Virus record (IMG/VR): IMGVR_UViG_3300021067_000014
Coordinates: 1-34,286 of that record
DNA length: 34,286 nucleotides
Strand: one strand, 5' to 3'
DNA from: a virus
Shown: in pieces, positions 14,808-29,241 of the stretch
Layout of the letters: each line of letters opens with the position of its first letter
Numbering within the stretch: the first letter of the stretch is position 1
The notes under the pieces: generated by a model
Databases searched by the model: none
Told to the model about the DNA's origin: nothing
What the model saw: only the letters and a program-made list of their open reading frames with translations
Position numbers and translations under genes: made by a program

Positions 14808-14827
14808 GTGAATCCTATTCCCCAACT

Positions 14828-14857
14828 ACTGAAGTTTTTTTCAAAATATACTTCAGT
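14828..14857. promoter_or_regulatory. Operator-like inverted repeat with minus-strand promoter
   Basis: ACTGAAGT (14828-14835) and ACTTCAGT (14850-14857) are perfect 8-bp arms separated by 14 A/T-rich bases. On the minus strand, TTGGAA, 16 bases and TATTTT overlap this repeat and point at the gene ending at 14577. A protein binding here could control that promoter and also the plus-strand direction. Function inferred from symmetry and position. Confidence 0.45.
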
Positions 14858-14914
14858 GACTTGGTTCCAAACTTAAATTATGGGGCCGCAATCAATAAAT
14901 AAAAAGGTCATAAC

Positions 14915-15028
14915 ATGTGGGATTTTTTGGTTAAGTTATGGTTTGACGCGGATCGGCGCGTAATGACGGATGAGCCAAATTCAGAAATGATTTTTATGCA
15001 ACGGAGTCCTTTGAAGACGTGCATCTAG
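14915..15028 (+). CDS. Tiny ORF, 37 residues, doubtful
   Basis: An ATG-started ORF with an aromatic N-terminus (MWDFLVKLWFDADRR) and a polar remainder. The upstream AAAAAGG is a weak ribosome binding site. It lies in an otherwise gene-poor stretch, in the same direction as the better-supported small ORF at 15113. It could be a leader peptide for that transcript or chance. Confidence 0.25.
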   Translation: MWDFLVKLWFDADRRVMTDEPNSEMIFMQRSPLKTCI

Positions 15029-15112
15029 CAGTCTTTTAATTCCATGAGCCTCTTTTCGTCGAGTGATGTTCCCTGAACTGTGGCGGGGAATTCCCGAAGA
15101 AAGGGGAACAAC

Positions 15113-15223
15113 ATGGACGAGCTAAATAAATTGCTGGTTGTCGCGGCTGGAGCAGTGGGACTGTTGCGGCAGGTGGTTAAGCTCCTTAAAGAGCTAACCA
15201 CCCGTAAAAACTTACCCAAATAA
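15113..15223 (+). CDS. 36-residue hydrophobic peptide with its own terminator
   Basis: Translates to a short hydrophobic, basic peptide: residues 7-20 (LLVVAAGAVGLLRQ) then VVKLLKELTTRKN. It has a good ribosome binding site (GAAAGGGGAAC, ATG 4 bases later) and is followed 5 bases after the stop by a strong terminator. The gene faces against the surrounding minus-strand genes, so it is a separate transcription unit. The upstream GTTCCC (15068-15073) can pair with GGGAAC of the ribosome binding site. This format recalls type I toxin peptides or small membrane regulators; a mini-holin is another option. Confidence 0.5.
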   Translation: MDELNKLLVVAAGAVGLLRQVVKLLKELTTRKNLPK

Positions 15224-15228
15224 GACGA

Positions 15229-15262
15229 GAGCTCAGTGACTTCAACACTGGGCTCTATTTTT
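15229..15262 (+). terminator. Rho-independent terminator of the small-peptide transcript
   Basis: GAGCTCAGTG (15229-15238) pairs with CACTGGGCTC (15246-15255), 10 bp with one G-U, 7-base loop, followed by TATTTTT. It lies just after the stop of the 36-residue peptide ORF and on the same strand, which argues that this short unit is really transcribed. Confidence 0.88.
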
Positions 15263-15375
15263 ACGGTAGTCCGATTCTAAAAATAAAGCAAACTTCATTA
15301 AAATTGCTCAAATTCAAATGAAAATCAGAGAATTCCCCCCCAGCCACACCATTGTGACCGGGGGTATTCGAACTC

Positions 15376-16019: not shown

Positions 16020-16426
16020 TTCTGCTCCAGTTTCTCACCACACAATTTTAATGCGGCGAGACATATCGCATAGGGGGCCGTGGCTGCTTGAGCTATTATT
16101 CCTTGGACTACACAGGAAAATTCCTCGGCAATAGTCCATTCACCTTGAAAGATTCCCATCGCATAATTTTCCAGAAGTTTAGTTTTCTCTACCACTTCCC
16201 ACGCGGCACTGATGTCGGTGGAGTAGTGGGGGATTTGCATAAGCAGTTTTTCTTTTTTAAGTAACAGGGTATGTAACTCAACACCAGAATTGGTTTTTGC
16301 AACATCAAATTGTTGTTCTACATAGTGGACGAATTGAGTCATTGGACATGGTCCATTCCCAACATCAAACGTCATTCCAAATATTTTCTCCGCCACTAAA
16401 GCATCAAGTTCACGCCCTGGGTTCAC
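16016..16426 (-). CDS. Phage ABA-sandwich-domain protein
   Basis: A 136-residue protein with landmarks of this small phage family: RELDALVAEKIFG (5-17), PHYSTDISAAWEVVEK (about 66-81) and TAPYAICLAALKLCG (about 116-130). In the family these flank an alpha-beta-alpha sandwich; the biochemical role is not known. It starts at a GTG inside the GTGA overlap with the upstream gene, whose last codons supply the GGAGGAGAA ribosome binding site. Its own end supplies the same kind of signal to the frameshifted gene downstream. Confidence 0.75.
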   Translation of the reverse strand: MNPGRELDALVAEKIFGMTFDVGNGPCPMTQFVHYVEQQFDVAKTNSGVELHTLLLKKEKLLMQIPHYSTDISAAWEVVEKTKLLENYAMGIFQGEWTIAEEFSCVVQGIIAQAATAPYAICLAALKLCGEKLEQK

Positions 16427-18051: not shown

Positions 18052-18065
18052 AATTGAGAAATCTT

Positions 18066-18686
18066 ATGAGTCGAGCGATTAAAACTCCAAAAGGGACCGA
18101 GCTACAGCTGAGAGATATTCATGGTCAAGACTATCTGGATGTTAAGTATCGGATCGTATGGTTTAGGGAGGAGTACCCGCTTTGGTCTATTGAGACTGAG
18201 TTTGTAGAAAAAAGCGAGAAACACGCGCTAATCAAAGCCACCGTGAAGGATGAAAATGGCAGAGTAAGGGCTACTGGGCACGGACATGAGAACCAACAGG
18301 GATTTAAAGACTTCAGAGAGAAGGCTGAAACAGCTGCGATCGGAAGGGCATTAGCGCATATAGGAATTGGTACGGTTAACGCGATTGAGCTCGAAGAGGG
18401 CGAAAAGATAGTTGATGCTCCAGCGTTTAAAAGAGCCCATGGGAGTCAGCCTGTTATTCATCCGGTTTCTCACTACTATCCGCCTGTTGAGGCTCCGAGG
18501 TTAGAGACTTATATCGTTCCTTTTGGAAAAAAGTATAAAGGTAGAAAGTTAACCGAGATTCCTAAAGAAGAAGTGCAAAAGTATTTGGACTGGCTACAAG
18601 AGGAAATCGATAAATCTGGGGAAGTTCCTAATAGTCAGACCAAAGATTTTATCCTTATGGCAGATAAGTATTTAGAAAAAGAGTGA
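18066..18686 (+). CDS. Rad52/Sak-like single-strand annealing protein with ExoX-like C-terminal domain
   Basis: A 206-residue protein from the ATG at 18066; a TTG at 18054 is possible but too close to the promoter. Residues 25-102 (VKYRIVWFREEYPLWSIETE, then ATVKDENGRVRATG, then KAETAAIGRALAHIGIG) follow the pattern of phage annealing proteins: a strand layer and a helix with A-E-T-x-A-x-G-R-A-L. Residues about 155-185 (VPFGKKYKGRKLTEIPKEE) match the small C-terminal domain seen in exodeoxyribonuclease X-like proteins, where G-K-x-K-G-x-x-L is the signature. It probably pairs complementary DNA ends for recombination or genome circularisation. No matching exonuclease is adjacent; the VRR-NUC protein (25000) is the only nuclease seen. 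Confidence 0.6.
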   Translation: MSRAIKTPKGTELQLRDIHGQDYLDVKYRIVWFREEYPLWSIETEFVEKSEKHALIKATVKDENGRVRATGHGHENQQGFKDFREKAETAAIGRALAHIGIGTVNAIELEEGEKIVDAPAFKRAHGSQPVIHPVSHYYPPVEAPRLETYIVPFGKKYKGRKLTEIPKEEVQKYLDWLQEEIDKSGEVPNSQTKDFILMADKYLEKE

Positions 18687-18757
18687 ACGTCTCTGAACTC
18701 TGCCTAATAACTGCCTCTTTATAAATTAGAAGGCCCACCGATAAGATAAGTGGGACT

Positions 18758-19639
18758 ATGCCGAACAACCTTGCTAGAGAGCTGTCTACAGTCATGCCAC
18801 AGCCTCAGTCCGAGTTGTGTGATCGCTTTGTTCGAGAAGTCTTACTGGGAAAGGTCTGTTGGGGCGAGCGAACGAATCACTTCTTACAACTTTGTAACTA
18901 TTGGACCACTGCACAAAAAGTCATTGAAGAGCTAAACCTTCCTCCTAGTGAATGGTCCGATCATAGAAATCTCATCTACCAATACTTCAGAAAACGCCGT
19001 CTAAGCGTCTCCTATGCACAAAAGGTTATTCGGGTATTAAACCTATGGGGAAGATTCTATTCTAGGCGAACCAATACGTTTTACGAGGAGGTTCCAAAGC
19101 CCCGGGGCGAAGCTTCAGTGAAGATTCAAGAGGCTTATTTTGAGAAGCGTCCTCATGGGCTAGTTTCTAAGGCGTTGAGCTGGGAACAGCTAAAATCTGT
19201 TAAAGACAAGATGCTAATTGAAAACTGGAACTGGCTTTATTTGACTCTTTGGTTTGGACTTAGGCCCAGTGAGTTAAATAATCTTAAGTGGGGAATAGAA
19301 GAATACAAAGGAGTAATGGTACTAGCAGTGTTCCAACACAAACTTGTACGTATTCCTACCGATCAGAGATGGAAGTTCATACCCATACTTTTTGAGGAAC
19401 AAAGAGCCGCTATTGATATTTTGGTAACCAAGAACTACCGAGTGCCTTTGGTTAAAACGCTACGTCGTCATATTGGTCCTAGGGTGACTCTCCGTGCAGG
19501 AAGAAAGGGTTTTGTGGCCCTAATGTGGGAGCAAGGTAAATACCCAAAGGAAGTATCCTACAGGTGGCTTGGGCATAAGAGCGTTAGAACGACCAATAAC
19601 CACTACACACAAGGGATTCAGCAGGCGTGTGAGTTTTAA
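18758..19639 (+). CDS. Tyrosine recombinase / integrase
   Basis: A 293-residue recombinase. Residues 20-110 form an N-terminal SAM-like DNA-binding region. Catalytic residues visible: Arg169 (FGLRPSEL), Lys195 (HKLVRIP), Arg246 (VTLRAGRKG), His273 (WLGHKSVRTTNNHY) and nucleophile Tyr283. The His of the usual H-x-x-R box is Val243, an unusual replacement. The 3' end from codon 285 to the stop is part of a 28-bp sequence repeated at 20133-20160. It probably inserts the phage genome into the host chromosome; no excisionase is recognised, though several small basic proteins are candidates. Confidence 0.88.
   Translation: MPNNLARELSTVMPQPQSELCDRFVREVLLGKVCWGERTNHFLQLCNYWTTAQKVIEELNLPPSEWSDHRNLIYQYFRKRRLSVSYAQKVIRVLNLWGRFYSRRTNTFYEEVPKPRGEASVKIQEAYFEKRPHGLVSKALSWEQLKSVKDKMLIENWNWLYLTLWFGLRPSELNNLKWGIEEYKGVMVLAVFQHKLVRIPTDQRWKFIPILFEEQRAAIDILVTKNYRVPLVKTLRRHIGPRVTLRAGRKGFVALMWEQGKYPKEVSYRWLGHKSVRTTNNHYTQGIQQACEF
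19611..19638 (+). repeat. 28-bp direct repeat, copy 1 (3' end of integrase gene)
   Basis: Identical over 28 bases to 20133-20160. This copy codes the last residues of the integrase (QGIQQACEF) and most of its stop codon. Flanks differ (C before and A after here; A before and G after in copy 2). It could be the core of an attachment site or the scar of a cassette insertion. Confidence 0.9.
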
Positions 19640-19671
19640 ATAGGATTCGTATCGGCGGTATATTCGTGCTA

Positions 19672-20133
19672 ATGGCAGTTCCTATGACGCAAGAACAGGC
19701 GGAACTGGTTAAAACCCCGATTTTGAGAGTAAGAGCGCTCAGCGGAAGATGTAGATCGGCCCTAGCAAATATGGCCTGGGGCCTTGGTTTTGATGGGGTA
19801 CGGCTTCGCGGTAAGGAAATTTTGTTAGAAGATGTTTTGACTATGGGTGCTCATAAACTGCTCCAAGTTAAGGGCTTTGGACGGAAATCCCTTAAAGAGC
19901 TTCTGGGTTTCATAGAAAAAAATCGATTCAATTTGGCCCCTGGACCTGATGTTAATCTCGAAGAATCCCCCAAAAGAGGTACGAAGCCATATAAAAGAAA
20001 ATACCTCTGGATTCCCAACCAAGAGGTAAAGCGGTGGGAAAAACGCATGAATGGAAAAGGTTATACCCAGGTATTGGTTTATGCCATTGACGGAAAACTC
20101 ACGACTAAATATAAAAAACGCGGATCGTTCTAA
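19672..20133 (+). CDS. RNA polymerase alpha-CTD-like protein
   Basis: A 153-residue protein from the ATG at 19672. Residues 16-85 follow the bacterial alpha-subunit C-terminal domain: RVRALSGRCRSALANMAW resembles the S-x-R-x-x-N-x-L-x-x-A segment, then LEDVLTMGAHKLLQVKGFGRKSLKELLGFI gives the helix-hairpin-helix with G-F-G-R-K-S-L-x-E. In RNA polymerase this domain contacts UP-element DNA and activators. No alpha N-terminal domain is present. The C-terminal 70 residues are basic. TATATT (19659-19664) ends 7 bases before the ATG and no ribosome binding site is seen, so the message may be leaderless. The gene lies between two identical 28-bp repeats. It may redirect or inhibit host transcription; other HhH DNA-binding roles remain possible. 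Confidence 0.75.
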   Translation: MAVPMTQEQAELVKTPILRVRALSGRCRSALANMAWGLGFDGVRLRGKEILLEDVLTMGAHKLLQVKGFGRKSLKELLGFIEKNRFNLAPGPDVNLEESPKRGTKPYKRKYLWIPNQEVKRWEKRMNGKGYTQVLVYAIDGKLTTKYKKRGSF

Positions 20134-20160
20134 AGGGATTCAGCAGGCGTGTGAGTTTTA
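20133..20160 (+). repeat. 28-bp direct repeat, copy 2 (after the alpha-CTD-like gene)
   Basis: Exact copy of 19611-19638. It begins in the stop codon of the alpha-CTD-like gene and its last three bases (20158-20160) form the stop codon of a convergent minus-strand gene. Together the copies bracket a 522-base unit. Confidence 0.9.
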
Positions 20161-20334
20161 GCGTTTAGGCTTTTTCCCAAATACTTGCTTATGCACCTTG
20201 CGGGCTAGCTCGCCAAAGGTATGTTCAACGAATTTAATGTGCCTCAATAAAGCGGCTTTCTTGCCCTTTAAATGAGGTACGAACTGTAGGCTATATTCTA
20301 TTTGTTTCTCGAGTTTAGTCTTTTTATTTGCCAA
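20158..20334 (-). CDS. Small very basic protein
   Basis: A 58-residue ORF starting at a TTG (20334) that overlaps the end of the upstream lipoprotein gene by 11 bases. Composition is strongly basic (Lys, Arg, His), with a helical middle (KAALLRHIKFVEHTFGELARKVHKQ). No ATG is available and no clear ribosome binding site, so it may rely on coupled translation. Its stop codon is supplied by copy 2 of the 28-bp repeat, which means the repeat boundary sets the C-terminus. Function unknown. Confidence 0.45.
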   Translation of the reverse strand: MANKKTKLEKQIEYSLQFVPHLKGKKAALLRHIKFVEHTFGELARKVHKQVFGKKPKR

Positions 20335-20542
20335 GCGGTTTCTTCACATCTGGATCTACATATGCCGGAATAAAGCACAGCGGATCTGCAGTCTTGCCCC
20401 CGGCAACCGAGTTCGCCTTGCAATAAAGTAATCTAGTATCCGTTGTCCAAACCCATGCTTCTTGTTTGTCGGACAGCATCACTGCTGTTTGAGTGCACGA
20501 AACTAATAAAGACACTGATGCTGCCAAAAGAACGTTTCTCAT
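20324..20542 (-). CDS. Small lipoprotein
   Basis: A 72-residue protein with a short signal (MRNVLLAASVSLLVSC) ending in a lipobox Cys16, so it should be lipid-anchored in the envelope. The mature part has two further Cys (about 41 and 56), perhaps a disulfide, and a Pro-rich C-terminus. An AAGGGGAG site precedes the ATG. It could be an o-spanin (Rz1-like) by size and anchor, but it is far from the lysis genes and not strongly Pro-rich; a superinfection-exclusion lipoprotein is the other common possibility. Confidence 0.7.
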   Translation of the reverse strand: MRNVLLAASVSLLVSCTQTAVMLSDKQEAWVWTTDTRLLYCKANSVAGGKTADPLCFIPAYVDPDVKKPLGK

Positions 20543-20552
20543 GAGCTCCCCT

Positions 20553-20909
20553 TTAATTATCCGCCAGGATGTATTTATCGCCTCTTTTTAGAATCTCTCC
20601 GCGCTTTTTGAGCCCCGAGAGCTCGATATGGACCCTGCTGGACAACGGGGTCTTCCCTACTACCGTAAACCCGGAGTCTTTTAGCTTTTCCACGAGTTTC
20701 ACAGAGGTAAGGCCGCTAGGGTACGATTTAAGCATGCTTCTAATGGCTTCCCGCAGGCCAGTCCCTTCAATCGCAGGTTTGGCTGATTTAGGTGGAACTT
20801 CAGCTTCAATTTTCTCTGCTCCGTCCAGGATGGTCTCGTAGGCGGATACGAGTTTTCTAGCCGCTTCCAGTTTGGCCTTTATTTCTGAGTAGAATGAGTC
20901 GGGTTTCAT
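20553..20909 (-). CDS. Winged-helix-type DNA-binding protein
   Basis: A 118-residue protein. Residues 1-35 are a coiled-coil-like helix (SEIKAKLEAARKLVSAYETIL). Residues 48-116 look like a winged helix: GLREAIRSMLKSYPSGLTSVKLVEKLKDSG as helices 1-3 and the wing SGLKKRGEILKRGDKYIL. The format (N-terminal dimer helix plus wHTH) suits a small regulator. It starts at an ATG overlapping the upstream stop by 4 bases. It could regulate the divergent early genes or lysogeny, but no target site is evident. Confidence 0.65.
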   Translation of the reverse strand: MKPDSFYSEIKAKLEAARKLVSAYETILDGAEKIEAEVPPKSAKPAIEGTGLREAIRSMLKSYPSGLTSVKLVEKLKDSGFTVVGKTPLSSRVHIELSGLKKRGEILKRGDKYILADN

Positions 20910-21211
20910 GGCTGCCTCTCTGTGGTATCGTTCTTAATAACCTTTAACTGGGGGCCCGATGTGCGATTGTCCTTGTCATTACTACTCTCAAGATCAGCTA
21001 GAGACTCTAGCAGCAAGGCTAGCCGCGTATTTGGAATATTGTCGGGAGACAGGCAAGATAGGGCTGTGGAGTAGGTCGATTCGAGAGCACTACGGTATAC
21101 CTCCCAGGAGCCAAGATGCTTCTCTCTGTCCCTCTGAAAAAGAACCAGAAGTCCAGCCATAGTAAACTGCTCGAAATCTTCGAGCCATTTGAGTAATTCC
21201 TTGTTGTCCAA
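20906..21211 (-). CDS. Small protein of unknown function, overlapped by an antisense ORF
   Basis: From the TTG at 21211 (GGGGGG site 5 bases upstream) it has 101 residues; a GTG at 21310 would add 33. Helical pattern LLKWLEDFEQFTMAGLLVLFQRD, then a polar C-terminus. It ends in a 4-base ATGA overlap with the winged-helix gene, which supports its reality. A 15-codon ORF (21213-21260) stops one base before the TTG, suggesting coupled translation. The + strand ORF 20959-21162, with similarity to the portal protein, lies entirely inside it, so one of the two may not be expressed. Confidence 0.5.
   Translation of the reverse strand: MDNKELLKWLEDFEQFTMAGLLVLFQRDREKHLGSWEVYRSALESTYSTALSCLSPDNIPNTRLALLLESLADLESSNDKDNRTSGPQLKVIKNDTTERQP
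20959..21162 (+). CDS. Portal N-terminus mimic, small protein
   Basis: A 67-residue ORF with a GGGGG site 4 bases before its ATG. Residues 7-47 align without gaps to residues 14-54 of this phage's portal protein with 17 of 41 identities, including YYS, Y-x-x-YC, TGK/SGK-x-G-x-W, RS-x-R and YGI. The DNA differs mostly at synonymous positions in the shared motif, which points to selection on the protein. The N-terminus adds C-x-C-x3-... Cys residues (MCDCPCHYYS). It lies antisense inside the minus gene 20906-21211. It might bind the portal's partner or the portal ring itself; expression is unproven. Confidence 0.5.
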   Translation: MCDCPCHYYSQDQLETLAARLAAYLEYCRETGKIGLWSRSIREHYGIPPRSQDASLCPSEKEPEVQP

Positions 21212-21212
21212 T

Positions 21213-21260
21213 TTATCCCCCCTGTTGAGAGGGTCTGACGACGGGGTAGCTGCGAGACAT
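21213..21260 (-). CDS. 15-codon leader peptide (putative)
   Basis: ATG at 21260 preceded by CAAAGGAACTACC; reads MSRSYPVVRPSQQGG and stops one base before the TTG of the minus gene 20906-21211. The RBS and first five codons (M-x-R-S-Y) mirror those of the divergent plus-strand ORF at 21404. A coupling or attenuation leader is plausible. Confidence 0.35.
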   Translation of the reverse strand: MSRSYPVVRPSQQGG

Positions 21261-21263
21261 TGG

Positions 21264-21400
21264 GGTAGTTCCTTTGCTATCTCACCCGCTCCTACTCTCT
21301 GCGGAACCACCTTAAAGATGTCTTGACAGATTTAGAAGCCAGTTCGAAAGTTGCCTCATCGATTCTCTTCGCAGGAGAATCGATAAACAAAGGAACTACC
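21264..21400. repeat. 13-bp inverted repeat pair in a divergent control region
   Basis: GGTAGTTCCTTTG (21264-21276) and CAAAGGAACTACC (21388-21400) are perfect inverse copies. Read outward, each is the ribosome binding region of a small ORF starting M-x-R-S-Y. The 111 bases between contain the perfect hairpin 21358-21384. I could not find a convincing promoter in either direction. Confidence 0.75.
21358..21384. other. Perfect 10-bp hairpin
   Basis: ATCGATTCTC (21358-21367) and GAGAATCGAT (21375-21384) with loop TTCGCAG. No T-run follows, so it is not a normal terminator; it may be an operator or an RNA structure in the leader of the plus-strand genes. Confidence 0.75.
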
Positions 21401-21403
21401 GAA

Positions 21404-21601
21404 ATGCCCAGAAGTTACTTTAGAATAACCCGCCTAATCAAACCCTTTCTTTTTCTTTCTTCTTTCATTCGCCTGAAGACACTGTGTCTTAGGCGGTTAA
21501 ATAGCTGGGGAGGGACTAGAACCTCTAGACCAAGCCTACCGTTTTTAGTTCAGCTTGCTTTTTATCAAGACGATCGCTCCGTCAGGGAGGGTCGATGGTA
21601 A
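21404..21601 (+). CDS. Small basic/hydrophobic ORF
   Basis: From the ATG at 21404 (AAAGGA site 9 bases upstream) it gives 65 residues: MPRSYFRITRLIKPFLFLSS, then Arg-rich and Ser/Thr-rich segments. The hydrophobic part (residues 11-23) is short. A strong hairpin (21470-21495) lies inside it and may be RNA structure rather than coding. Its end overlaps the next ATG by 7 bases. The start resembles the divergent 15-codon leader. Reality as a protein is uncertain; a structured leader transcript is the alternative. Confidence 0.35.
   Translation: MPRSYFRITRLIKPFLFLSSFIRLKTLCLRRLNSWGGTRTSRPSLPFLVQLAFYQDDRSVREGRW
21470..21495 (+). other. Strong hairpin (CGCCT/AGGCG with AAGACA/TGTCTT)
   Basis: CGCCT, one bulged G, AAGACA, a CTG loop, TGTCTT and AGGCG make an 11-bp stem. 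It is followed by GTTAAATAG and not by a T-run. Together with the hairpin at 21358-21384 and the region from 21784 onward it marks this part as RNA-structure-rich. Confidence 0.65.
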
Positions 21602-21774
21602 GAGAATCCTTCATTCTACAAAAAGCGGCCAAGATTATCGCCGATAACAAAAAGAACACATTAAAAGCCGCCAAACAGATTTTTGATCTTCTAGAACAAA
21701 ACCGCTTACTCGATTGGAGCCGGCTCGATCCGGATTATCCCAAGAAAGAAAAAGGAGGTTCTAGAGGACGTTAA
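21595..21774 (+). CDS. Small helical protein of unknown function
   Basis: A 59-residue protein with a good CAGGGAGGG ribosome binding site before its ATG. The N-terminal 40 residues form a basic amphipathic helix (LQKAAKIIADNKKNTLKAAKQ, then IFDLLEQNRLLDW), and the tail is polar (KKEKGGSRGR). It lies between two structured stretches and at the head of the plus-strand early region. Small basic helical proteins here can be regulators or excisionases, but there is no motif to choose. Confidence 0.55.
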   Translation: MVRESFILQKAAKIIADNKKNTLKAAKQIFDLLEQNRLLDWSRLDPDYPKKEKGGSRGR

Positions 21775-21783
21775 TAGAGGGCA

Positions 21784-22152
21784 TGGGTGGTCCTAACCGC
21801 CCACAGTGATGGAGGCGTATAGCGCCCAAGAAGTCATGGACTCGTGAGGGTCTACCACGATTTGGTTCGTGTAAGCATAGCTTCAGTGAGCTGTTACTCA
21901 GCTGAAGCATTAGGTGTCCGAAGGTTGATAGGCCGACGGGTAGTGAACACTAGGAGAGCACCATCGATAAGCGACAGGGGCGCCTCGATGCTTGGGCCAC
22001 AGTACTGTGCCTGCGTCTACCTATGGAGAAGTTGTTTTTGTTGAAGTTGGGCTAACTCGAATCAGTAAGAGGGCTTACAGGTGTACTGGCTAGAGAATAC
22101 GGAATGGGGATTGGGGGGCATTCTTATGTCCTCAGGAATCCTGACCTCTGGG
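21784..22152 (+). ncRNA. Candidate structured noncoding RNA or structured DNA element
   Basis: About 370 bases with no convincing ORF and a chain of hairpins: TGGGTGG/CCGCCCA (21784-21803), GGCG/CGCC (21814-21826), TCGTG/CACGA (21842-21860), GCTTCAG-TGAG/CTCA-G-CTGAAGC (21880-21908), CATCGA/TCGATG with inner GCG/CGC (21962-21990), CACAG/CTGTG (21998-22009), GTAAG/CTTAC (22065-22078), TCAGG/CCTGA (22132-22144) and CTGGG/CCCGG (about 22148-22160). Composition is more G-rich than the flanking genes. It lies between short plus-strand genes. I do not recognise tmRNA, RNase P, 6S or intron cores. Phages are known to carry large ornate RNAs (GOLLD, ROOL); membership cannot be judged by eye. A replication origin is the other option. 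Strand is inferred from the neighbours. Confidence 0.5.
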
Positions 22153-22164
22153 TAGCCCGGGTTT

Positions 22165-22341
22165 ATGAGCAGTAAAGAAGGCAGAAGTGAGAAGCAGACT
22201 AATGAAAGTACAAAAGAAAGGCTGTGTAAGGTTTGTAAAGCAAGACTCAGATCATCCATCGGTCCTTACAGAGAGAAGTACTGGAAAAGCAGACTTTGTA
22301 GGTTCCATTTCCACAGAAGGCCAAAAACGGAGGATAGATGA
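22165..22341 (+). CDS. Small Cys/His protein, zinc-finger-like
   Basis: A 58-residue protein from the ATG at 22165. It has CKVCKARLRSSIGPYREKYW followed by LCRFHFHRR, i.e. C-x2-C and C-x2-H-x-H pairs that could bind one zinc ion, in a strongly basic context. Its stop overlaps the next ATG (ATGA), supporting this frame over the longer overlapping frame starting at 22187. Possibly a DNA-binding early protein. No clear ribosome binding site; the end of the structured region lies directly upstream. Confidence 0.6.
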   Translation: MSSKEGRSEKQTNESTKERLCKVCKARLRSSIGPYREKYWKSRLCRFHFHRRPKTEDR

Positions 22342-22526
22342 CAAAGCTAAAACTCTTAAAAGGCCTATTAGAGATGAAGATCCAAGCGATTCTTTATGTT
22401 GGACGGGAGGACGGAATGTTAACCCCTGAGCAACACCAGAGATGGAAGATTTACAAAGACTTACTAGAGGTTATTGAGACTATAGAGGACATCGAGGATC
22501 TTAACGGACACGATAAGGCGGCATAG
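22338..22526 (+). CDS. Small helical protein of unknown function
   Basis: A 62-residue protein starting in an ATGA overlap with the zinc-finger-like gene. The N-terminal half is hydrophobic-basic (LKLLKGLLEMKIQAILYVG); then PEQHQRWKIYKDLLEVIETIEDIEDL forms an acidic helix. The gene ends 1 base before an AGGAGG ribosome binding site for the next. No family recognised. Confidence 0.55.
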   Translation: MTKLKLLKGLLEMKIQAILYVGREDGMLTPEQHQRWKIYKDLLEVIETIEDIEDLNGHDKAA

Positions 22527-22539
22527 GAGGTATGAATGA

Positions 22540-22908
22540 ATGCCATATAAGGATAAAGACAAACAAAGAGCAGCGCAGTTGGCCTATTATTATCGCCGAA
22601 AGGAAGCCTGTAACCGAAGGCAGAAGGAATGGAGAGAAAAAAATAAAGAACGCAAGCTGGAATATGACAGGGAATATGCCAAGACTCACAGAGATATACG
22701 CAACAGAATTTCCCGAGCATATGAAGCCAGAAACCCCGGAAGAAAAATTCGATCACATATTCGATGTCGATATGGGACGGAATGGTTAGAGGCTGTATTA
22801 GCCCTACAAAAGCTAGAGGAGGAAATACGTGGACGCAAAAAAGAAACTAACAGCAACGAATCTAAAGGAGGAGCTTTGGAAGGCTCTAATGGATCTACAG
22901 AAAGGTAA
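22540..22908 (+). CDS. Basic phage protein, MPYKDKDKQRAAQ-type start
   Basis: A 122-residue, very basic helical protein. The opening MPYKDKDKQRAAQLAYYYRRKEA is a recurrent N-terminal pattern of phage proteins that often precede HNH-like or DNA-binding domains; here 35-75 is an Arg/Lys/Glu-rich helix (RREWREKNKERKLEYDREYA-like) and no HNH residues follow. An AGGAGG site lies 7-12 bases upstream. Its last 27 codons overlap the next gene in another frame and look low-complexity, so the C-terminus is probably constrained by that gene. Nucleic-acid binding is a fair guess. Confidence 0.6.
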   Translation: MPYKDKDKQRAAQLAYYYRRKEACNRRQKEWREKNKERKLEYDREYAKTHRDIRNRISRAYEARNPGRKIRSHIRCRYGTEWLEAVLALQKLEEEIRGRKKETNSNESKGGALEGSNGSTER

Positions 22909-23098
22909 AATCGAGCCCGGTGACGCAAATGCTGTTGCTTATCAGGCCAGGGCCATTACTTCGGTCATAAAGCTCGAACTACAGATTAATAAAGCTAGTA
23001 ACAGACGACCGGGAAAAGAGTTACAGGAGTTTACCCAAGTGGGAGAAGTTCTGGAACCTCAGTTACCTAAGCAGCTAGAAAAAGGTAAGAAGGAGTGA
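22829..23098 (+). CDS. Small phage protein of unknown function
   Basis: An 89-residue protein starting at a GTG with GGAGG nearby (22818-22822). Residues 10-55 (ATNLKEELWKALMDLQKGKI, then EPGDANAVAYQARAITSVIKLELQI) match a common small phage protein in which L-x-x-x-L-x-x-L-x-x-G-K-I/x-P-x-D-A-x-A is followed by an I-x-x-V-I-K-x-E-L helix; its role is unknown. It overlaps the upstream gene by 80 bases, an unusually long overlap, and is followed 3 bases later by the next gene. Confidence 0.65.
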   Translation: MDAKKKLTATNLKEELWKALMDLQKGKIEPGDANAVAYQARAITSVIKLELQINKASNRRPGKELQEFTQVGEVLEPQLPKQLEKGKKE

Positions 23099-23101
23099 GA
23101 A

Positions 23102-23293
23102 ATGGAAAACGAAGACTTAGTAAAAGTACTGTTACGTATTGACCAAAGGCTGGATGCTTTAGAACACTTTGCAGAACAAGCAACAACGCTTATTAATGCG
23201 CTTATTGAGATTCAGACACCCAAACAGCAAGGTCCGAAAGTGGACTTTCCACCTGAATTTGGACATTTGCTTAACCGAATGGATGGAAAATGA
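23102..23293 (+). CDS. Small helical protein of unknown function
   Basis: A 63-residue acidic protein with a heptad-like helix (LVKVLLRIDQRLDALEHFAEQ, then ATTLINALIEI), suggestive of a short coiled coil, and a polar C-terminus. An AAGAAGGAGTGAG region ahead of its ATG can act as ribosome binding site. The stop overlaps the next start (ATGATGG). It belongs to the chained early operon. No family recognised. Confidence 0.55.
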   Translation: MENEDLVKVLLRIDQRLDALEHFAEQATTLINALIEIQTPKQQGPKVDFPPEFGHLLNRMDGK

Positions 23294-23550
23294 TGGATAA
23301 ATCACTAAGCACTAAACTTTTTTCAGGCGAGGAATTTCGACAAATTACCGGTCTTTCCGCTGACGAAATTAACGATATCTTTCGATATCGAAATATTAAG
23401 ACTGCTGTTACGCCAGATGGATCTGGCTATCCTCGGAAATTCTCCATATATGATGTGGGAATAGGCATTGCTTATGTTGTATTGAAAAAGTATCAAATCA
23501 AAAAATCAAATCTCTTATATAAAGAACTACAAGAGGCATATGTACGATGA
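23290..23550 (+). CDS. MerR-like small DNA-binding protein
   Basis: An 86-residue protein. Residues 11-55 (FSGEEFRQITGLSADEINDIFRYRNI, then GYPRKFSIYDVGIGIAYVVL) resemble the winged-helix start of MerR-type proteins: a helix-turn-helix followed by a Y-x-x-x-D-V segment and helix, as in small phage regulators. Length covers only the DNA-binding part. It starts 4 bases inside the previous gene and overlaps the replication-initiator candidate by 11. It could regulate early transcription or take part in initiation. Confidence 0.6.
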   Translation: MMDKSLSTKLFSGEEFRQITGLSADEINDIFRYRNIKTAVTPDGSGYPRKFSIYDVGIGIAYVVLKKYQIKKSNLLYKELQEAYVR

Positions 23551-24097
23551 AGAAACCAAAGAAATCCTTAGAAGAATCGAACGACACCTGGGTGTTATTA
23601 GACAGTATGTCGACACCAGACTTACAGGAGTGGCTGACAGAGTCGGTGCCCAATCTGATAAAAAAGACACGCCAAATGGTGGAGCAGAACATCGAAAGCC
23701 TGTCCTCTCTAGACCTGCTACTAAGACAGATAAAAAAAATACTTCGGTCGCGGCGCTCATCGGCTGCTACGTTAAGCACTGGCAAGAGAGGTACCAAACC
23801 AAAGCAAGACCAGACACTATTAGCGCCCCCGCCATCTTCAAAGCGCTCCTTAAAGACCGCACCCAAGAAAAACTCGAAGCGCTCCTCCAAATCTACTGCC
23901 AAATGGAAGACCGTTGGTTTACGGAAAAGAGGCACGACCTCGCGACATTCAAGTTCAATATTGGTAAAGTAGACTTAGCGCTTCACGCTGGTCACGAAAA
24001 CACGGGTCTCAACATGGGTAAGGTTTTTGGGGGGATCGGGGATGGACAAAAGCGTCTTTCTGATGCAGATAGACAGAATGATGAAGACGTGGGGTGA
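23540..24097 (+). CDS. Probable replication initiator
   Basis: A 185-residue protein. Residues 1-25 form a charged helix (YDEETKEILRRIERHLGVIR); 35-68 look like a flexible linker; 69-140 (SVAALIGCYVKHWQERYQTKA, then APAIFKALLKDRTQEKLEALLQIYCQMEDRWF) resemble the small helical domain of phage replication proteins that precede a helicase loader gene. The following gene fits a loader, strengthening this. AGAGG lies only 3 bases before its ATG, a short spacing. A second frame starting at 23547 overlaps it. No catalytic motif; assignment from pattern and position. Confidence 0.6.
   Translation: MYDEETKEILRRIERHLGVIRQYVDTRLTGVADRVGAQSDKKDTPNGGAEHRKPVLSRPATKTDKKNTSVAALIGCYVKHWQERYQTKARPDTISAPAIFKALLKDRTQEKLEALLQIYCQMEDRWFTEKRHDLATFKFNIGKVDLALHAGHENTGLNMGKVFGGIGDGQKRLSDADRQNDEDVG
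23547..23972 (+). CDS. Overlapping frame inside the initiator gene, doubtful
   Basis: A 141-residue frame whose ATG is 7 bases after that of the initiator candidate and better spaced from AGAGG (10 bases). Its first 70 residues (SNDTWVLLDSMSTPDLQEWL, then KKTRQMVEQNIESLSSLDLL) look like a real helical protein, while the last 70 are Ser/Lys/Arg low-complexity as expected for a shadow frame. It may be an overprinted gene, or chance. Confidence 0.25.
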   Translation: MKKPKKSLEESNDTWVLLDSMSTPDLQEWLTESVPNLIKKTRQMVEQNIESLSSLDLLLRQIKKILRSRRSSAATLSTGKRGTKPKQDQTLLAPPPSSKRSLKTAPKKNSKRSSKSTAKWKTVGLRKRGTTSRHSSSILVK

Positions 24098-24497
24098 CAA
24101 CCACTACAAACCCGAAAGGGTCAGCTTGTTTTGGAGAAGTTTTCACTCAGTAGCGAACGAATGGTTTGAAAGTGCCATCGATTACCTCATCGGTAATCAC
24201 CGAAGTGCTCCAATGGTCGAAGAAATCGCAAAAGCGATCGATCAGGCTAAGAACAGACATTATAGCGAACGTAGTGACAGAGGTATGGAGGATATCATCT
24301 CTAATGCTGAGACTAACTCAATGGCTGATAGAGACTTAGTCCAGCAGTGTAACCAGGTCAGAAAAGACTATCTCACCGGAAAGCTCACAAAAGATCAGTT
24401 TCTAAAGTACTGCGATGAGTTAGAGAGTTTGGCGAAACACATTGCCCAAGCGAAACGAATGCCAGAGAGTCCCCGAGAGCGACAATTCGCTAGTTAA
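24042..24497 (+). CDS. Probable helicase loader (G39P / lambda P-type)
   Basis: A 151-residue protein from the ATG at 24042 with a GGGG site just upstream (a TTG at 24027 is less likely). Residues 8-70 (QIDRMMKTWGDNHYKPERVSL, then FWRSFHSVANEWFESAIDYLIGNHRSAP and MVEEIAKAI) match the compact helical pattern of phage proteins that load or inhibit the replicative helicase, where a W-x-x-x-L/F core and a P-x-x-x-E-I end are typical. The C-terminus is a charged helix. No helicase gene is present, so it would load the host DnaB. Confidence 0.6.
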   Translation: MDKSVFLMQIDRMMKTWGDNHYKPERVSLFWRSFHSVANEWFESAIDYLIGNHRSAPMVEEIAKAIDQAKNRHYSERSDRGMEDIISNAETNSMADRDLVQQCNQVRKDYLTGKLTKDQFLKYCDELESLAKHIAQAKRMPESPRERQFAS

Positions 24498-24500
24498 GCC

Positions 24501-24938
24501 ATGAGTAAGCCGTCTGACCGCTATGAGACTCCTCCGGAAATATTCGAGTACTTAAATCACATCCACGGGCCATTCGATCTTGATGTGTGTGCTGAAGTTT
24601 CAACGGCCAAATGCAGCACATTTATAACTTTAGAAGCGAATTCACTCGCTGCGGAATGGCACCAGTTTGGAAAACGCGCTTGGATGAATCCTCCCTACTC
24701 GAACATTCGACCTTGGGTAGAAAAGGCTATCAATGAGTCTAAAAAGGGAGTTGTAACCTGTGCACTTCTACCAGCAGATACTTCCACTCGGGTCTTTCAC
24801 GACTGTATCTATGGGAAACCGGGCGTCATCAGCTATTTTTATCCAAAGAGGATCAAGTTTCTGCTGGATGGAACTCGTCAGCAATCAGCGAAGTTCGGAA
24901 GCTTAGTCACTCTGTTTTACCCAAATTATCGCGTTTAA
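24501..24938 (+). CDS. dam: Phage DNA N6-adenine methyltransferase (Dam-like)
   Basis: A 145-residue enzyme of the phage N6A-methylase group (PF05869-like). It has FDLDVCAE (25-32) for the S-adenosylmethionine pocket, catalytic NPPY (63-66, WMNPPYSNIRPWVEKAI), and the late FYPKRIKFLLDGTR segment with G-S-L-V-x-L-F-Y-P at the end. It would methylate adenine in phage DNA, protecting it from restriction or timing replication and packaging. It starts 3 bases after the loader gene. The target site cannot be read from the sequence. No cognate nuclease of a restriction system is adjacent except the VRR-NUC protein. Confidence 0.88.
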   Translation: MSKPSDRYETPPEIFEYLNHIHGPFDLDVCAEVSTAKCSTFITLEANSLAAEWHQFGKRAWMNPPYSNIRPWVEKAINESKKGVVTCALLPADTSTRVFHDCIYGKPGVISYFYPKRIKFLLDGTRQQSAKFGSLVTLFYPNYRV

Positions 24939-24999
24939 TGCGCCGCTATTGCAAACTTATTACAAACTAAGACATAGTGTATAGGTTGGGGGAATAAGC

Positions 25000-25404
25000 T
25001 TGTCCTATCCCATGTCTGAGGCAGCAGTACTAGCCGGCTGCAAACACTTACTTGAACTATTACGTAATGAAGGCCTACTCGTTTGGAAAAGAATATCCAC
25101 CACTGGTATTCCAGTAGGGGATCAGACAAGGCGCGCCATCTTTGTGAAAAACCCAGCTCAAGGGATGGCCGATATCATGGTCTTTCTAAAGTCCGATCCC
25201 CCAAAGACCCTACATATAGAACTAAAAAGTAAAACTGGCAGGCTCAGCGAAGCTCAAGAGAAGTGGAGAGATGAGCTAAAAGCTATGGGGCATGACACCT
25301 ACTACCTTGTGCGAAGTGTACAAGAGCTAGAAAAGGTGCTCATAGATAATGGAGTAGTCCATTGGTCGTTGAACAGAAGGGCCCACGAATGCGCGGGGGA
25401 CTAA
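25000..25404 (+). CDS. VRR-NUC-type nuclease
   Basis: A 134-residue nuclease from the TTG at 25000, preferred because GGGGGA lies 7 bases upstream; the ATG at 25012 is the alternative. The PD-(D/E)xK core is visible: GMADIMVF with Asp58, then LHIELKSKTG with Glu74 and Lys76, followed by LSEAQEKWRDELKAMGHDTYYL. VRR-NUC proteins act on branched or junction DNA; in phages they may resolve recombination intermediates or replace RusA. It closes the early operon and is followed by the iteron-like repeats. Confidence 0.82.
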   Translation: MSYPMSEAAVLAGCKHLLELLRNEGLLVWKRISTTGIPVGDQTRRAIFVKNPAQGMADIMVFLKSDPPKTLHIELKSKTGRLSEAQEKWRDELKAMGHDTYYLVRSVQELEKVLIDNGVVHWSLNRRAHECAGD

Positions 25405-25405
25405 G

Positions 25406-25443
25406 GGGAGACTGGCGGGAGACAGGGGAGACTTTGGAGAGAC
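25406..25443 (+). repeat. Iteron-like GGGAGAC repeats
   Basis: GGGAGAC occurs at 25406-25412, 25417-25423 and 25426-25432, with a degenerate copy ending in GAGAC at 25436-25443. Spacing is close to one helical turn, so a protein would see all copies on one face. They sit just after the early operon and before an AT-rich stretch. Candidates are a replication origin bound by the initiator, a packaging site or an operator. Confidence 0.55.
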
Positions 25444-25624
25444 AACGAAACAAACCTTATACGACATCAGTATCTAAAATATGACTTATCAAGACAACTG
25501 CTCGATCGGTAACCCCCCTTATCAGACTTATTGCTCATTTTGGGAGATTAATTCCGATTGCTATCTGGAATGGGCATTGATAAATGCAGATAAAAGTCAT
25601 TGATCGAATAAAGCATAAAGAATC

Positions 25625-25667
25625 TCCCCGGATTTGCTCTTATGGGGCAAACTCCGGGGATTTTCTT
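25625..25667 (+). terminator. Rho-independent terminator after the early operon
   Basis: TCCCCGGA-TTTGC (25625-25637) pairs with GCAAA-c-TCCGGGGA (25647-25660), 13 bp with one bulge, followed by TTTTCTT. It separates the early genes from the small-terminase promoter. Confidence 0.88.
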
Positions 25668-25683
25668 ATCCGAGGTCGTTTGT

Positions 25684-25711
25684 CTTAACTATGTCGTGTG
25701 TATAGTATACT
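25684..25711 (+). promoter_or_regulatory. Promoter of the packaging/late operon, probably leaderless
   Basis: TTAACT (25684-25689), 16 bases, TATACT (25706-25711); TTGTCT (25680-25685) with TATAGT (25701-25706) is a second possible pair. The ATG lies at 25718, so transcription should begin at or within a few bases of the start codon. No ribosome binding site is present. Confidence 0.6.
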
Positions 25712-25717
25712 GCACTA

Positions 25718-26167
25718 ATGGGGGATAAGACTAAGTCTGCTCGTATGGGCAGACCTTCTAAATACAAGCCGGAATATTGTGAACGACTTATTGAGTGGAT
25801 GAGTCAGGGTAAGTCATTTGAAGCCTTTGGTGCTGAGATTGATGTTACTCGTGATTGTCTCTACAAGTGGTGCGAACAATTTCCAGAGTTTTTATACGCT
25901 AAAAGCAAAGGAAAGCTGAAGAGCCTTCGCTATTATGAAGATTTAGCCAGGGACTACATCCAAGGAGTGCAGCCCAATCCTCAAGGATCGATGCTGATGT
26001 TTCTTCTCAAATGTCGATTCAGAGAGTTTGGATATCGAGATAAATTTCCAGATGATCCACAGGAAACTCAAGTAGTTGTTCAGAATTCATCGGTTGACTT
26101 ATCTAAGCAATCTACTGAAAAATTAGTCTCTCTGCTTATTGAATCTAAGAAGACTAAGTCAGACTAA
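25718..26167 (+). CDS. Terminase small subunit
   Basis: A 149-residue protein that probably recognises the packaging site and recruits the large terminase. Residues 9-60 (RMGRPSKYKPEYCERLIEWM, then GKSFEAFGAEIDVTRDCLYKWCEQFPEF) form the G-R-P-S-K-Y-x-P helix-turn-helix typical of phage small terminases. Residues 65-110 (LRYYEDLARDYIQG, then NPQGSMLMFLLKCRFREFGYRDK) give the oligomerisation region. The polar C-terminus would contact the large subunit. The ATG follows the promoter directly without a ribosome binding site. The large terminase gene lies about 1.65 kb downstream, an unusual gap filled with small genes. Confidence 0.8.
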   Translation: MGDKTKSARMGRPSKYKPEYCERLIEWMSQGKSFEAFGAEIDVTRDCLYKWCEQFPEFLYAKSKGKLKSLRYYEDLARDYIQGVQPNPQGSMLMFLLKCRFREFGYRDKFPDDPQETQVVVQNSSVDLSKQSTEKLVSLLIESKKTKSD

Positions 26168-26179
26168 TGGGGGGAATTT

Positions 26180-26386
26180 ATGGCTGACGACAAAGAATTG
26201 TCTAATGAAGAGAAGCTTCAAAACTCGATCAAACTACTAGATGTAGCCATCTATGTTGTTGGGGATAGGCCTCTTACTACAGAAAACCTAGAGGCTGTGA
26301 GTCAGTGTGTGAACTTTCTAAAACAGATTAGACAAAATGCAGTTAATGAACTGGAACAGATTAAAGCGCAGTCTGCCAAGGCCTAG
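26180..26386 (+). CDS. Small helical protein of unknown function
   Basis: A 68-residue acidic protein, all helix by composition (NEEKLQNSIKLLDVAIYVVG, then NLEAVSQCVNFLKQIRQNAV). A GGGGGG ribosome binding site (26169-26174) lies 5 bases before its ATG. It is between the small and large terminase genes in the late transcript. No family recognised. Confidence 0.6.
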   Translation: MADDKELSNEEKLQNSIKLLDVAIYVVGDRPLTTENLEAVSQCVNFLKQIRQNAVNELEQIKAQSAKA

Positions 26387-26396
26387 TCTGGGTTGG

Positions 26397-26795
26397 ATGT
26401 CTATTTCAGATATCGTTTATCTTAGAAATAGGCTTTTAGCTCTGTATTTGAACCCTGGAGAGAAATTATCGGTCAATAATCCAGACAACTGGGTGAGTTG
26501 CCCCACACAGATAGAAATATTCTTTCACGGGTCTACACCGGTGTTTCGATTTAATCGTTTCTGGATTGATAAAGAGGGAACAATTCAGTCTCGTGTGATG
26601 ACTGCGTGGCTCAAGCTTCAGGGGGCGAATGTTCCTAACTGGCATCTTCAGGAGTTAGATGGGCCCATAGAAGCCGTGCCCTTTAATTCTAAAGAGGTTA
26701 AGCCTCTAGTGAAATTACTGCGACAGTTTAAGAAGTACTTCCCGTTTACGCCGACAAATAACTTCTTACTCAATAACGGGGAGGTGATCGTATGA
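26397..26795 (+). CDS. Protein of unknown function, 132 residues
   Basis: From the ATG at 26397; an earlier in-frame ATG (26337) lies inside the upstream gene and its extra 20 residues look like a frame shadow. The protein mixes strands and aromatic residues (TQIEIFFHGSTPVFRFNRFW, then SRVMTAWLKLQGANVPNWHL) and ends in KKYFPFTPTNNFLLNNG. The stop overlaps the next ATG by 4 bases (ATGA). I do not recognise the family. Position in the packaging operon is its only functional hint. Confidence 0.55.
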   Translation: MSISDIVYLRNRLLALYLNPGEKLSVNNPDNWVSCPTQIEIFFHGSTPVFRFNRFWIDKEGTIQSRVMTAWLKLQGANVPNWHLQELDGPIEAVPFNSKEVKPLVKLLRQFKKYFPFTPTNNFLLNNGEVIV

Positions 26796-27592: not shown

Positions 27593-27842
27593 GTTATTCC
27601 CATTAGCGATAGCCCTTTTACTGGCAAAGCTCCTGCTCACAGTGGACCTATCCACCCAGGAGTGTGTGCTCTATGTGGTAACGATCCTAGGCTTTGTGGC
27701 TATTTTTGCGATCAGGGAATTCATAAAGGCAAAGCAGCTCTATAAGGCAGAGATAGATGAGCTCAAAGAGGATATGCAGGAGCTTAAAAATCAAATGAAC
27801 GCATTCCAATTACGGTATGGCTTTGAAGGCCGAATCCCTTAA
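27534..27842 (+). CDS. Two-TM membrane protein, holin-like
   Basis: A 102-residue protein with two hydrophobic helices (about 22-37, LFPLAIALLLAKLLLT; about 44-61, VLYVVTILGFVAIFAI) and a charged C-terminal coiled coil (KAEIDELKEDMQELKNQ). Two TMs with a short loop and a charged tail are the layout of a class II holin. It lies directly before the large terminase, overlapping it by 26 bases, and far from the endolysin. If it is the holin, the small TM protein at 9906 may be an antiholin or spanin. Confidence 0.6.
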   Translation: MEDSLKNSGVITQLASNTAKLFPLAIALLLAKLLLTVDLSTQECVLYVVTILGFVAIFAIREFIKAKQLYKAEIDELKEDMQELKNQMNAFQLRYGFEGRIP

Positions 27843-29241
27843 TAGTGATCTCATAGAACAGGAACTCTTTAGAAGAGGCGTTCTAACCTATAAACTGCAT
27901 GCAGGGCAGTTAGTTATTGAACAATCTTTTAATCAATTAAACGGAAAGTTATTCGTAGCTGACTGCTCAAGACAACTTGGAAAGTCCACTTGGGCAGCCT
28001 GTAAGGCTATTGAAACCGCTATTCGTATTCCTAACTGTAGAATCAGAGTAGCGACTGCTTTTTTAACTGACTTAGAGCAGTTCATTATGCCGGCTTTTGA
28101 GTTTGCTCTAGATAACTGTCCACAGGATATTGAGCCTAGGTTTTATGCTCAGAAGAAGGAATATTACTTTCCCAATGGTTCTAAGATCCGCTTGGTGGGC
28201 TTGGATCGTAAGCCTAATGGTTTGCGTGGAAACCGTCTGGATCTCGTCATTTTGGATGAAGCTGGATACATCTCTCGTTTGGATTATCTTTACGGCTCTG
28301 TGCTTATCCCTGCTACTACTCATACTCCACATGCCAGAATAATCATGCTTTCCACACAACCTGCGTCTCCAGATCATGAATTTATTGTGTTTTGTGACAG
28401 AGCTGAAGCGGAAGGGGGCTATGTTAAACTGGATATATTCAAAAATCCGCTTCTTAATAAAGAACAGATTGATAAGCTTGCAGAAGAATGTGGGGGATAT
28501 GAATCAACCGCTTTCAGAAGAGAGTATCTATGCGAACGCGTTGTGGAGGAAGGTCGAGCTATCATCCCGGAGTTTAGAGAAAGACATCATGTCGCTCCTA
28601 CGGTCATTGGACCGTATCACCACTTCTGGCATAAGATCGAAAGCCTCGACTCGGGCGTTCGTGATCAGACGGCTTGCTTATTTGGATACTATGATTTCCT
28701 TAATGCAAAACTCGTTATCGAACATGAGTTCTATCTCCAGGGAGATAAAGTTACTACAAAAGCCATCGCCCAAAAGGTCACCCAAGTTGAAAGTGAACTT
28801 GGATGGACAAGTGTTTATCGACGAGTAGCCGATAACGATAACCTCATTCTAGTGCAAGACCTAGACAGTGAGTTTAATCTCAGTTTTTACCCTACCAATA
28901 AGGATGAATTACACGCCATGGTCAACAAAGTGCGTCTATGGATGCAAGCCGGGCGTATTCAGATACATCCTAGATGCACACACTTAATCGGGAACTTAAA
29001 GTCTGGTATCTGGGATAAGAATAAGAAACAGTTCGATAGGTCTAGGACTTATGGGCATTTTGATGCACTAAGTGCACTTGTTTACATGGTTAGAAATGTC
29101 CCTGATAATGATAACCCGGTTCCTGTTGGATATGGCATGCCGATGAGTGATACACTTATTATCACTAAGCCTAATCAAGTTAGCGATACCGCATTAGAGA
29201 TTCAAAGGGGGTTTAATAATGCTTGGGGTGGACAGACTTAA
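27817..29241 (+). CDS. Terminase large subunit
   Basis: A 474-residue packaging motor. ATPase: Walker A variant SRQLGKST (51-58), Walker B LVILDE (143-148) and the coupling motif LSTQP (179-183). Nuclease: Asp278 (SLDSGVRDQT), the DND triplet at about 339-341 and HFDALSALVY (Asp416), the acidic residues expected of the RNase H-like fold. It cuts concatemers and pumps DNA into the procapsid through the portal. It overlaps the holin-like gene by 26 bases and the portal gene by 23. Size and motif spacing are normal for phages with a headful or similar mechanism. Confidence 0.93.
   Translation: MALKAESLNSDLIEQELFRRGVLTYKLHAGQLVIEQSFNQLNGKLFVADCSRQLGKSTWAACKAIETAIRIPNCRIRVATAFLTDLEQFIMPAFEFALDNCPQDIEPRFYAQKKEYYFPNGSKIRLVGLDRKPNGLRGNRLDLVILDEAGYISRLDYLYGSVLIPATTHTPHARIIMLSTQPASPDHEFIVFCDRAEAEGGYVKLDIFKNPLLNKEQIDKLAEECGGYESTAFRREYLCERVVEEGRAIIPEFRERHHVAPTVIGPYHHFWHKIESLDSGVRDQTACLFGYYDFLNAKLVIEHEFYLQGDKVTTKAIAQKVTQVESELGWTSVYRRVADNDNLILVQDLDSEFNLSFYPTNKDELHAMVNKVRLWMQAGRIQIHPRCTHLIGNLKSGIWDKNKKQFDRSRTYGHFDALSALVYMVRNVPDNDNPVPVGYGMPMSDTLIITKPNQVSDTALEIQRGFNNAWGGQT

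Follow-up and report, generated by a model that had tools for sequence, protein, structure and literature searches.

A candidate orphan structured RNA between two small ORFs of a 34-kb phage genome

The locus and its coding potential

The window analysed here is the whole of the IMG/VR virus record IMGVR_UViG_3300021067_000014, 34,286 bases in length. Its terminase, portal and major head protein genes are recognisable from matches in PHROGs, as is a gene resembling tyrosine integrases, and between two small ORFs of the + strand, ORF A and ORF B, lies the subject of this study, an ORF-free stretch of 390 nt (Table 1). The gap is slightly larger than the interval first reported, 21784-22152. Its 3′ limit is less sure than its 5′ limit, since ORF B does not have the codon usage of the phage genes; indeed, ORF B is not certain to be a gene, and the custom gene caller, which had dropped it, gives the gap as 21775-22337. 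The stop codon of ORF B and the start codon that follows it share the sequence ATGA (22338-22341).

Table 1. Coordinates of the element, its predicted substructures and the genes of the record discussed in the text (p, pair probability)
Feature	Position	Strand	Remarks
Tyrosine-integrase-like gene	18758-19639		phrog_1, E 5.9e-9; 2.1 kb upstream of the element
ORF A, 59 aa, upstream neighbour	21595-21774	+	Shine-Dalgarno-like AGGGAGG precedes ATG; codon score +0.10/codon
ORF-free candidate element, 390 nt	21775-22164	+	between ORF A and ORF B
Closing stem, outer limits of fold	21779-21782 / 22155-22158	+	GGGC / GCCC; predicted, mean pair probability 0.77
Predicted hairpin, 8 bp including one G-U	21784-21803	+	loop CCUA; p 0.95
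Predicted long composite stem	21808-22017	+	GAUG/CGUC, AGGC/GCCU, GCCCAAG/CUUGGGC; strands 21808-21830/21991-22017; p 0.91
Predicted hairpin, 7 bp including two G-U	21837-21854	+	GUGA (GNRA-type) loop; p 0.92
GTG ORF, 66 codons	21844-22044	+	codon score -0.20/codon
Predicted hairpin, 5 bp	21856-21871	+	p 0.93
Predicted hairpin, 7 bp + 4 bp	21880-21908	+	one-base bulge; p 0.97 and 0.88
Predicted weak interrupted hairpin	21917-21955	+	p 0.56-0.71
Predicted hairpin, 6 bp + 3 bp	21962-21990	+	p 0.60 and 0.47
3′ part, poorly defined	22018-22154	+	stems p 0.28-0.69 except 22107-22142
ORF of at least 60 aa	22062-22259	-	codon score -0.16/codon
Predicted hairpin in 3′ part	22107-22142	+	p 0.91; inner stem 22114-22133, p 0.97
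ORF B, 58 aa, downstream neighbour	22165-22341	+	Cys/His-rich middle; codon score -0.11/codon, computed to 22337
Terminase small subunit	25718-26167		PHROGs match
Terminase large subunit	27817-29241		PHROGs match
Portal	29219-31282		PHROGs match
Major head protein (capsid)	32430-33671		PHROGs match

The initial annotation had described the stretch as devoid of a credible ORF in a genome that is otherwise gene-packed. The first part of this description was borne out across 21775-22164. Only two ORFs of at least 60 aa touch the gap, and both have low codon scores on a scale that was trained on genes of at least 120 aa and on which the 20 called genes shorter than 130 aa range from +0.01 to +0.16 per codon. 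Moreover, translation of the gap in all six frames, with X at stops, gave no match in PHROGs or Pfam at E ≤ 1. By codon usage and by six-frame family searches alike, therefore, the stretch is non-coding, and a protein pseudogene was rejected on the same two grounds. The second part of the description holds only partly, in that the custom gene caller leaves 14 other intergenic gaps of at least 100 nt in the record, the largest of them 568 nt.

A simple scan, the counts of which were not above those in shuffled sequences, found no promoter-like or terminator-like site inside 21775-22164. Upstream of ORF A there is a further ORF-free gap (21311-21594) that could hold the promoter of an operon. 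This gap contains a perfect 10-bp hairpin at 21358-21384 (ATCGATTCTC/GAGAATCGAT) and, by eye, a strong hairpin at about 21470-21496 (CGCCTGAAGACAC/GTGTCTTAGGCG), and it may carry divergent promoters. On the - strand, positions 21500-21560, 2 kb from the integrase-like gene, resemble by eye the T-arm and 3′ acceptor of a tRNA; the stretch is not called by ARAGORN and has no Rfam match, and is perhaps an att remnant or a chance likeness. Elsewhere in the record, the 568-nt gap (14808-15375) separates rightward tail genes from a leftward gene block, and the lowest fold z values of the whole record, down to -5.7 on the + strand and -5.2 on the - strand, are those of its 150-nt windows at 15151 and 15226. 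With its several strong hairpins this gap looks, by eye, like a convergent terminator region.

Predicted fold, composition and comparison with chance

Folding calculations suggest that the + strand of the element can form a self-contained, multibranched structure, the minimum-energy form of which has an energy of -138.6 kcal/mol. The predicted fold starts four bases past the stop codon of ORF A and ends six before the ATG of ORF B. Within it, the long composite stem, a further segment of which (21817/22005) has p 0.66, closes a multiloop of five hairpins, three of them at p >0.85. Some of the strong stems contain one or two G-U pairs which, together with the GUGA loop, are specific to the + strand.

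The strongest sign that the element is an RNA gene is its status as an outlier in composition. Its G+C content is 0.528, whereas the 14 other intergenic stretches that reach 100 nt average 0.422 (sd 0.030), with a maximum of 0.484. On the other side, 5 of 3390 overlapping 390-nt windows outside the element are equally rich, those listed beginning near 32600 and 33250 within the capsid coding sequence. The GC-IGR method for discovering structured RNAs (PMC11109978) takes long intergenic regions rich in G+C as its starting candidates, and the element resembles the regions described there in being a long G+C-rich intergenic stretch in a genome of lower G+C content. Taken alone the criterion is a weak one, since Table 1 of that source gives 2948 'known ORFs' against 4714 regions examined, with many others unnamed or low-ranking. 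The pipeline, as the same source describes it, next requires similar sequences in other genomes (PMC11109978); none could be found for the element, and because of this it would stay in the lowest, unclassified grade.

The number of hairpins is less distinctive. At least eight stems had been counted in the initial annotation, several of them said to be perfect and the longest, at 21880-21908, to be of 11 bp. The hairpins are indeed present, 10 of them being non-overlapping and having Watson-Crick stems of 4 bp or more, but their density is little above chance: as many occur in 33 of 500 dinucleotide shuffles and in 19 of 184 other windows of the same size, while the 4 hairpins of at least 5 bp are matched by 43 of the shuffles and 44 of the windows. 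The putative 11-bp stem proves to be 7 bp and 4 bp around a one-base bulge, so that it is not perfect, and the element yielded no Watson-Crick stem of 6 bp or more that is uninterrupted and has a loop of 3-10 nt.

In terms of fold energy, the + strand is ordinary (z -1.39, with 8 of 100 shuffles as good; z -1.13 and 38 of 300 in a second run), and 24 of 88 same-size windows of the genome have a z as low. The - strand is the more unusual of the two, with a z of -3.47 that none of 100 shuffles equalled, a z of about -3.5 in a second run (1 of 300 shuffles) and only 1 of 88 windows as low. In absolute energy the element beats all 88 same-size windows on either strand. This extreme value, set beside the ordinary z of the + strand, means that much of the apparent stability of the element is owed to its G+C content, and the hairpin counts point the same way. 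The shuffles themselves have a mean energy of -131 kcal/mol on the + strand versus -101 kcal/mol on the - strand, which is C+A-rich. The 5′ part (21779-22017), a sub-region picked after the fold had been seen, reaches a z of -2.2 and beats 293 of 300 shuffles. Pair-probability entropy is no better than that of shuffles, either for the whole element (116 of 300) or for the 5′ part (51 of 300), and 150-nt windows across the element have z values of about -2.2 to +1.7, none of them among the 40 lowest of 912.

Known RNA classes, homologues and the phage lineage

The initial annotation had raised the possibility that the stretch belongs to one of the giant phage RNAs, to be looked for with covariance models. 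None of 4227 Rfam families reached its gathering score anywhere in the 34,286-base record, and at E ≤ 10 the interval 21300-22400 returned only two unrelated weak matches, both outside 21784-22152. As no Rfam model matches, membership of GOLLD, ROOL, HEARO, OLE, the group I/II introns or tmRNA is unsupported. Neither the conserved catalytic core and Rfam match of a group I/II intron nor the tRNA-like domain and tag frame of a tmRNA was found at the element, and ARAGORN finds no tRNA or tmRNA in the 34,286-base record. The element is like GOLLD and ROOL in being large, non-coding, hairpin-rich and phage-borne, and unlike GOLLD in its size, about 380 nt as compared with the >800 nt that are given for many members of that class (PMC12286853). 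It differs from both, further, in having no Rfam match at gathering or at E ≤ 10 and no tRNA in the record, the two classes being described as often near tRNA islands (PMC12286853).

Searches for homologues covered the element, its neighbours and its predicted structure. There was no blastn match to 21600-22330 in 50,697 phage records or to 21770-22170 in 72,556 plasmids, and comparison of 21776-22164 with 11 whole records of relatives gave only short, chance-like pieces (11-25 nt) in 2 of the 11. Approaching IMG/VR by way of neighbouring proteins (the integrase, an 89-aa ORF at 22829-23095, and ORF A and ORF B joined) yielded nothing, and in phages neither ORF A nor ORF B nor the capsid had a tblastn match. 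DNA patterns built on loops and junctions, scanned in IMG/VR, gave four matches and then two more. All six were rejected, having no likeness to the element outside the pattern itself; the first four are almost identical and, by eye, protein-coding, and the other two are antisense to a 164-aa ORF.

A covariance model, R1, was made from the single sequence 21824-21997 (effective number 0.73). It found only itself in 23 sources (333,904 bases) and had no match in 10 terminase-related virus or phage records. In 398 bacterial genomes of one phylum it gave five matches at E ≤ 0.1. The best of these, L032, is antisense within a 452-aa ORF, which we take to be GlmU-like, and was rejected, as were three others (L033, L034 and L036), in which the match is limited to one hairpin; the fifth, L035, scores 17.6 bits and has no Rfam family at its position. 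The element is therefore an orphan, with no homologue in the phage, plasmid, IMG/VR, terminase-related or bacterial-genome searches, made in collections that may omit records very near this one, such that closer relatives may exist.

The phage as a whole does have relatives. A terminase search of IMG/VR gave L002 (60% terminase identity, 74% for the capsid) and L003 (46%), to which a three-row terminase alignment, with 9 loci found there, added 7 at 25-43%; a two-row capsid alignment returned the contig of L002 again and nothing else in IMG/VR. Against genome contigs the capsid found nothing and the terminase alignment five distant loci (best 34%), while in 301 genomes of one order the latter found only G003, a locus already known. 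The best terminase match in the phage collection has 25.6% identity, which is consistent with a lineage that has no cultured close relative in the collection searched.

When the 35 ORFs of the record were compared with 15 related loci, those in 18758-25717 had no match at E ≤ 0.05. The nearest flanking ORFs that were matched, 18054-18686 upstream and 26337-26795 downstream, both have their counterparts in L002, and for 25718-26167 the only matches, in L014 and L015, are weak. In other words, the block around the element varies, its ORFs being unmatched in the relatives, and offers no syntenic counterpart of the element for comparison. L002, the nearest relative, contains nothing recognisable as 18687-26336; its capsid, portal and terminase genes align. 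The end and the start of the record are continuous in L002 (position 33692 aligns at 16030 and base 3 at 19354; region 1-2043), which makes the record look like an almost complete genome, circular or permuted. At the joint between its end and its start, up to about 2.7 kb differs from L002. At 12011-13360, in the tail/lysis part, the phage encodes a cysteine protease of the papain family (Pfam PF00112, E 3.2e-27), and a similar protease, with a match to peptidase phrog_16701, lies on the other strand of L002 at 1641-2414.

ORF-poor gaps occur in two of the relatives as well. The one in L012 (2365-3021), between leftward Gam-like and rightward ParB-like genes, has a z of -1.3 on the + strand and of -3.5 on the - strand, where it beats all 100 shuffles, and is possibly a stand-alone RNA gene. 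That of L002 (3240-3870, about 600 nt) stands beside a leftward tRNA-Asn(GTT), with an Erf-like gene after it, and has z values of -3.1 on + and -0.7 on -. On the - strand of each there is a strong hairpin followed by nine T. The proposal that these gaps hold the same element was rejected, as there is no similarity above shuffles, including between the two gaps themselves, and the gene contexts differ; nor does either gap have an Rfam family at gathering or a credible one at E ≤ 5. Sharing no sequence and matching no Rfam family, they lend the element no support. What they do suggest is that these phages repeatedly carry spacers that may hold RNAs.

Interpretation and rival explanations

The best explanation in our judgement, one to which we give a little less than even confidence, is that the stretch is a non-coding orphan of about 380 nt, transcribed on the + strand as part of an operon and folding into a compact, multibranched RNA. 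A structured RNA is plausible but unproven; the reading fits because there is no ORF, the G+C content is an outlier and the predicted + strand fold is compact. Several stems with p >0.9, the agreement of the predicted ends of the fold with those of the gap, the better energy of the 5′ part, the G-U pairs and GUGA loop of the + strand and the empty promoter and terminator scan of the gap count for it, and the ordinary + strand energy, the entropy on a par with shuffles, the more unusual - strand, the lack of a homologue in the searches made and the few equally G+C-rich windows elsewhere count against it.

A serious rival, doubtful on balance and still a real contender, is that this is intergenic DNA, either inert or acquired recently: a fragment of somewhat higher G+C content left by recombination in a mosaic region and carrying hairpins at chance level. 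It would account for a hairpin number and + strand energy barely above those of shuffles, and it agrees with the failure to find any homologue and with the missing counterpart of 18687-26336 in L002, by which the region varies between relatives. Set against this, 390 nt without function would be costly for a 34-kb phage amid tightly spaced + strand ORFs, and the composition of the element is out of line with the other gaps.

We think it improbable that the element acts as DNA, whether as a replication origin, a packaging site or a recombination (att) site. For the origin or packaging element that had been suggested at the outset no positive sign was found. The element is G+C-rich rather than A+T-rich, it has no direct-repeat family within it (four two-copy families occur in 21300-22400, with at most one copy of each inside) and the terminase genes start about 3.6 kb downstream (25718), all of which outweighs, in our estimate, the nearby integrase-like gene and a perfect 12-base palindrome at 21998-22009. 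Very improbable, too, is a structured RNA read from the - strand (22158 to 21779). Despite the stronger energy excess of that strand, such an RNA would run against both neighbouring ORFs, with no - strand promoter-like or terminator-like site in or beside the gap, and the lower z may stem from the C+A-rich strand having shuffles that fold poorly. Least tenable of all is a missed or decayed protein gene in 21775-22164, for which the open GTG frame offers room but the codon score of that frame and the six-frame searches do not.

For the favoured reading, a structured RNA of the + strand, a mechanism may be outlined from the gene order and the predicted fold. ORF A, the element, ORF B and the downstream genes would form a rightward operon with a single + strand transcript; this sense of transcription is suggested by the + orientation of both neighbours, by the lack of a promoter or terminator specific to the RNA and by the ORF-free gap upstream. 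Within the transcript the element would make up an RNA domain comprising the closing stem, one side hairpin, the long stem with its five-hairpin multiloop and a looser 3′ part. In the weakest step of this scheme, the domain would act in cis between the cistrons, setting the processing, stability, read-through or translation of the downstream genes. We consider such a role the likeliest, ahead of a free-standing giant RNA, because the element is flush between two ORFs and has no promoter or terminator of its own, while the promoter, terminator or tRNA neighbours that would be expected of a free-standing giant RNA were not found. By analogy, the element may be likened to phage leaders and antitermination RNAs such as HK022 put in being a structured RNA of an early phage transcript. 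HK022 put is a cis-acting antitermination RNA, and put sites are much shorter than this element.

More tentatively, and at odds that we regard as rather unlikely, the element could be the first member seen of a new phage RNA class, multibranched and medium-sized (about 380 nt), carried in an early operon of an uncultivated siphophage-like lineage and lying outside Rfam. Being a single sequence without relatives, it should be taken as a lead rather than a discovery. Should it prove real, the small set of large RNAs known from phages would gain an orphan structured member.
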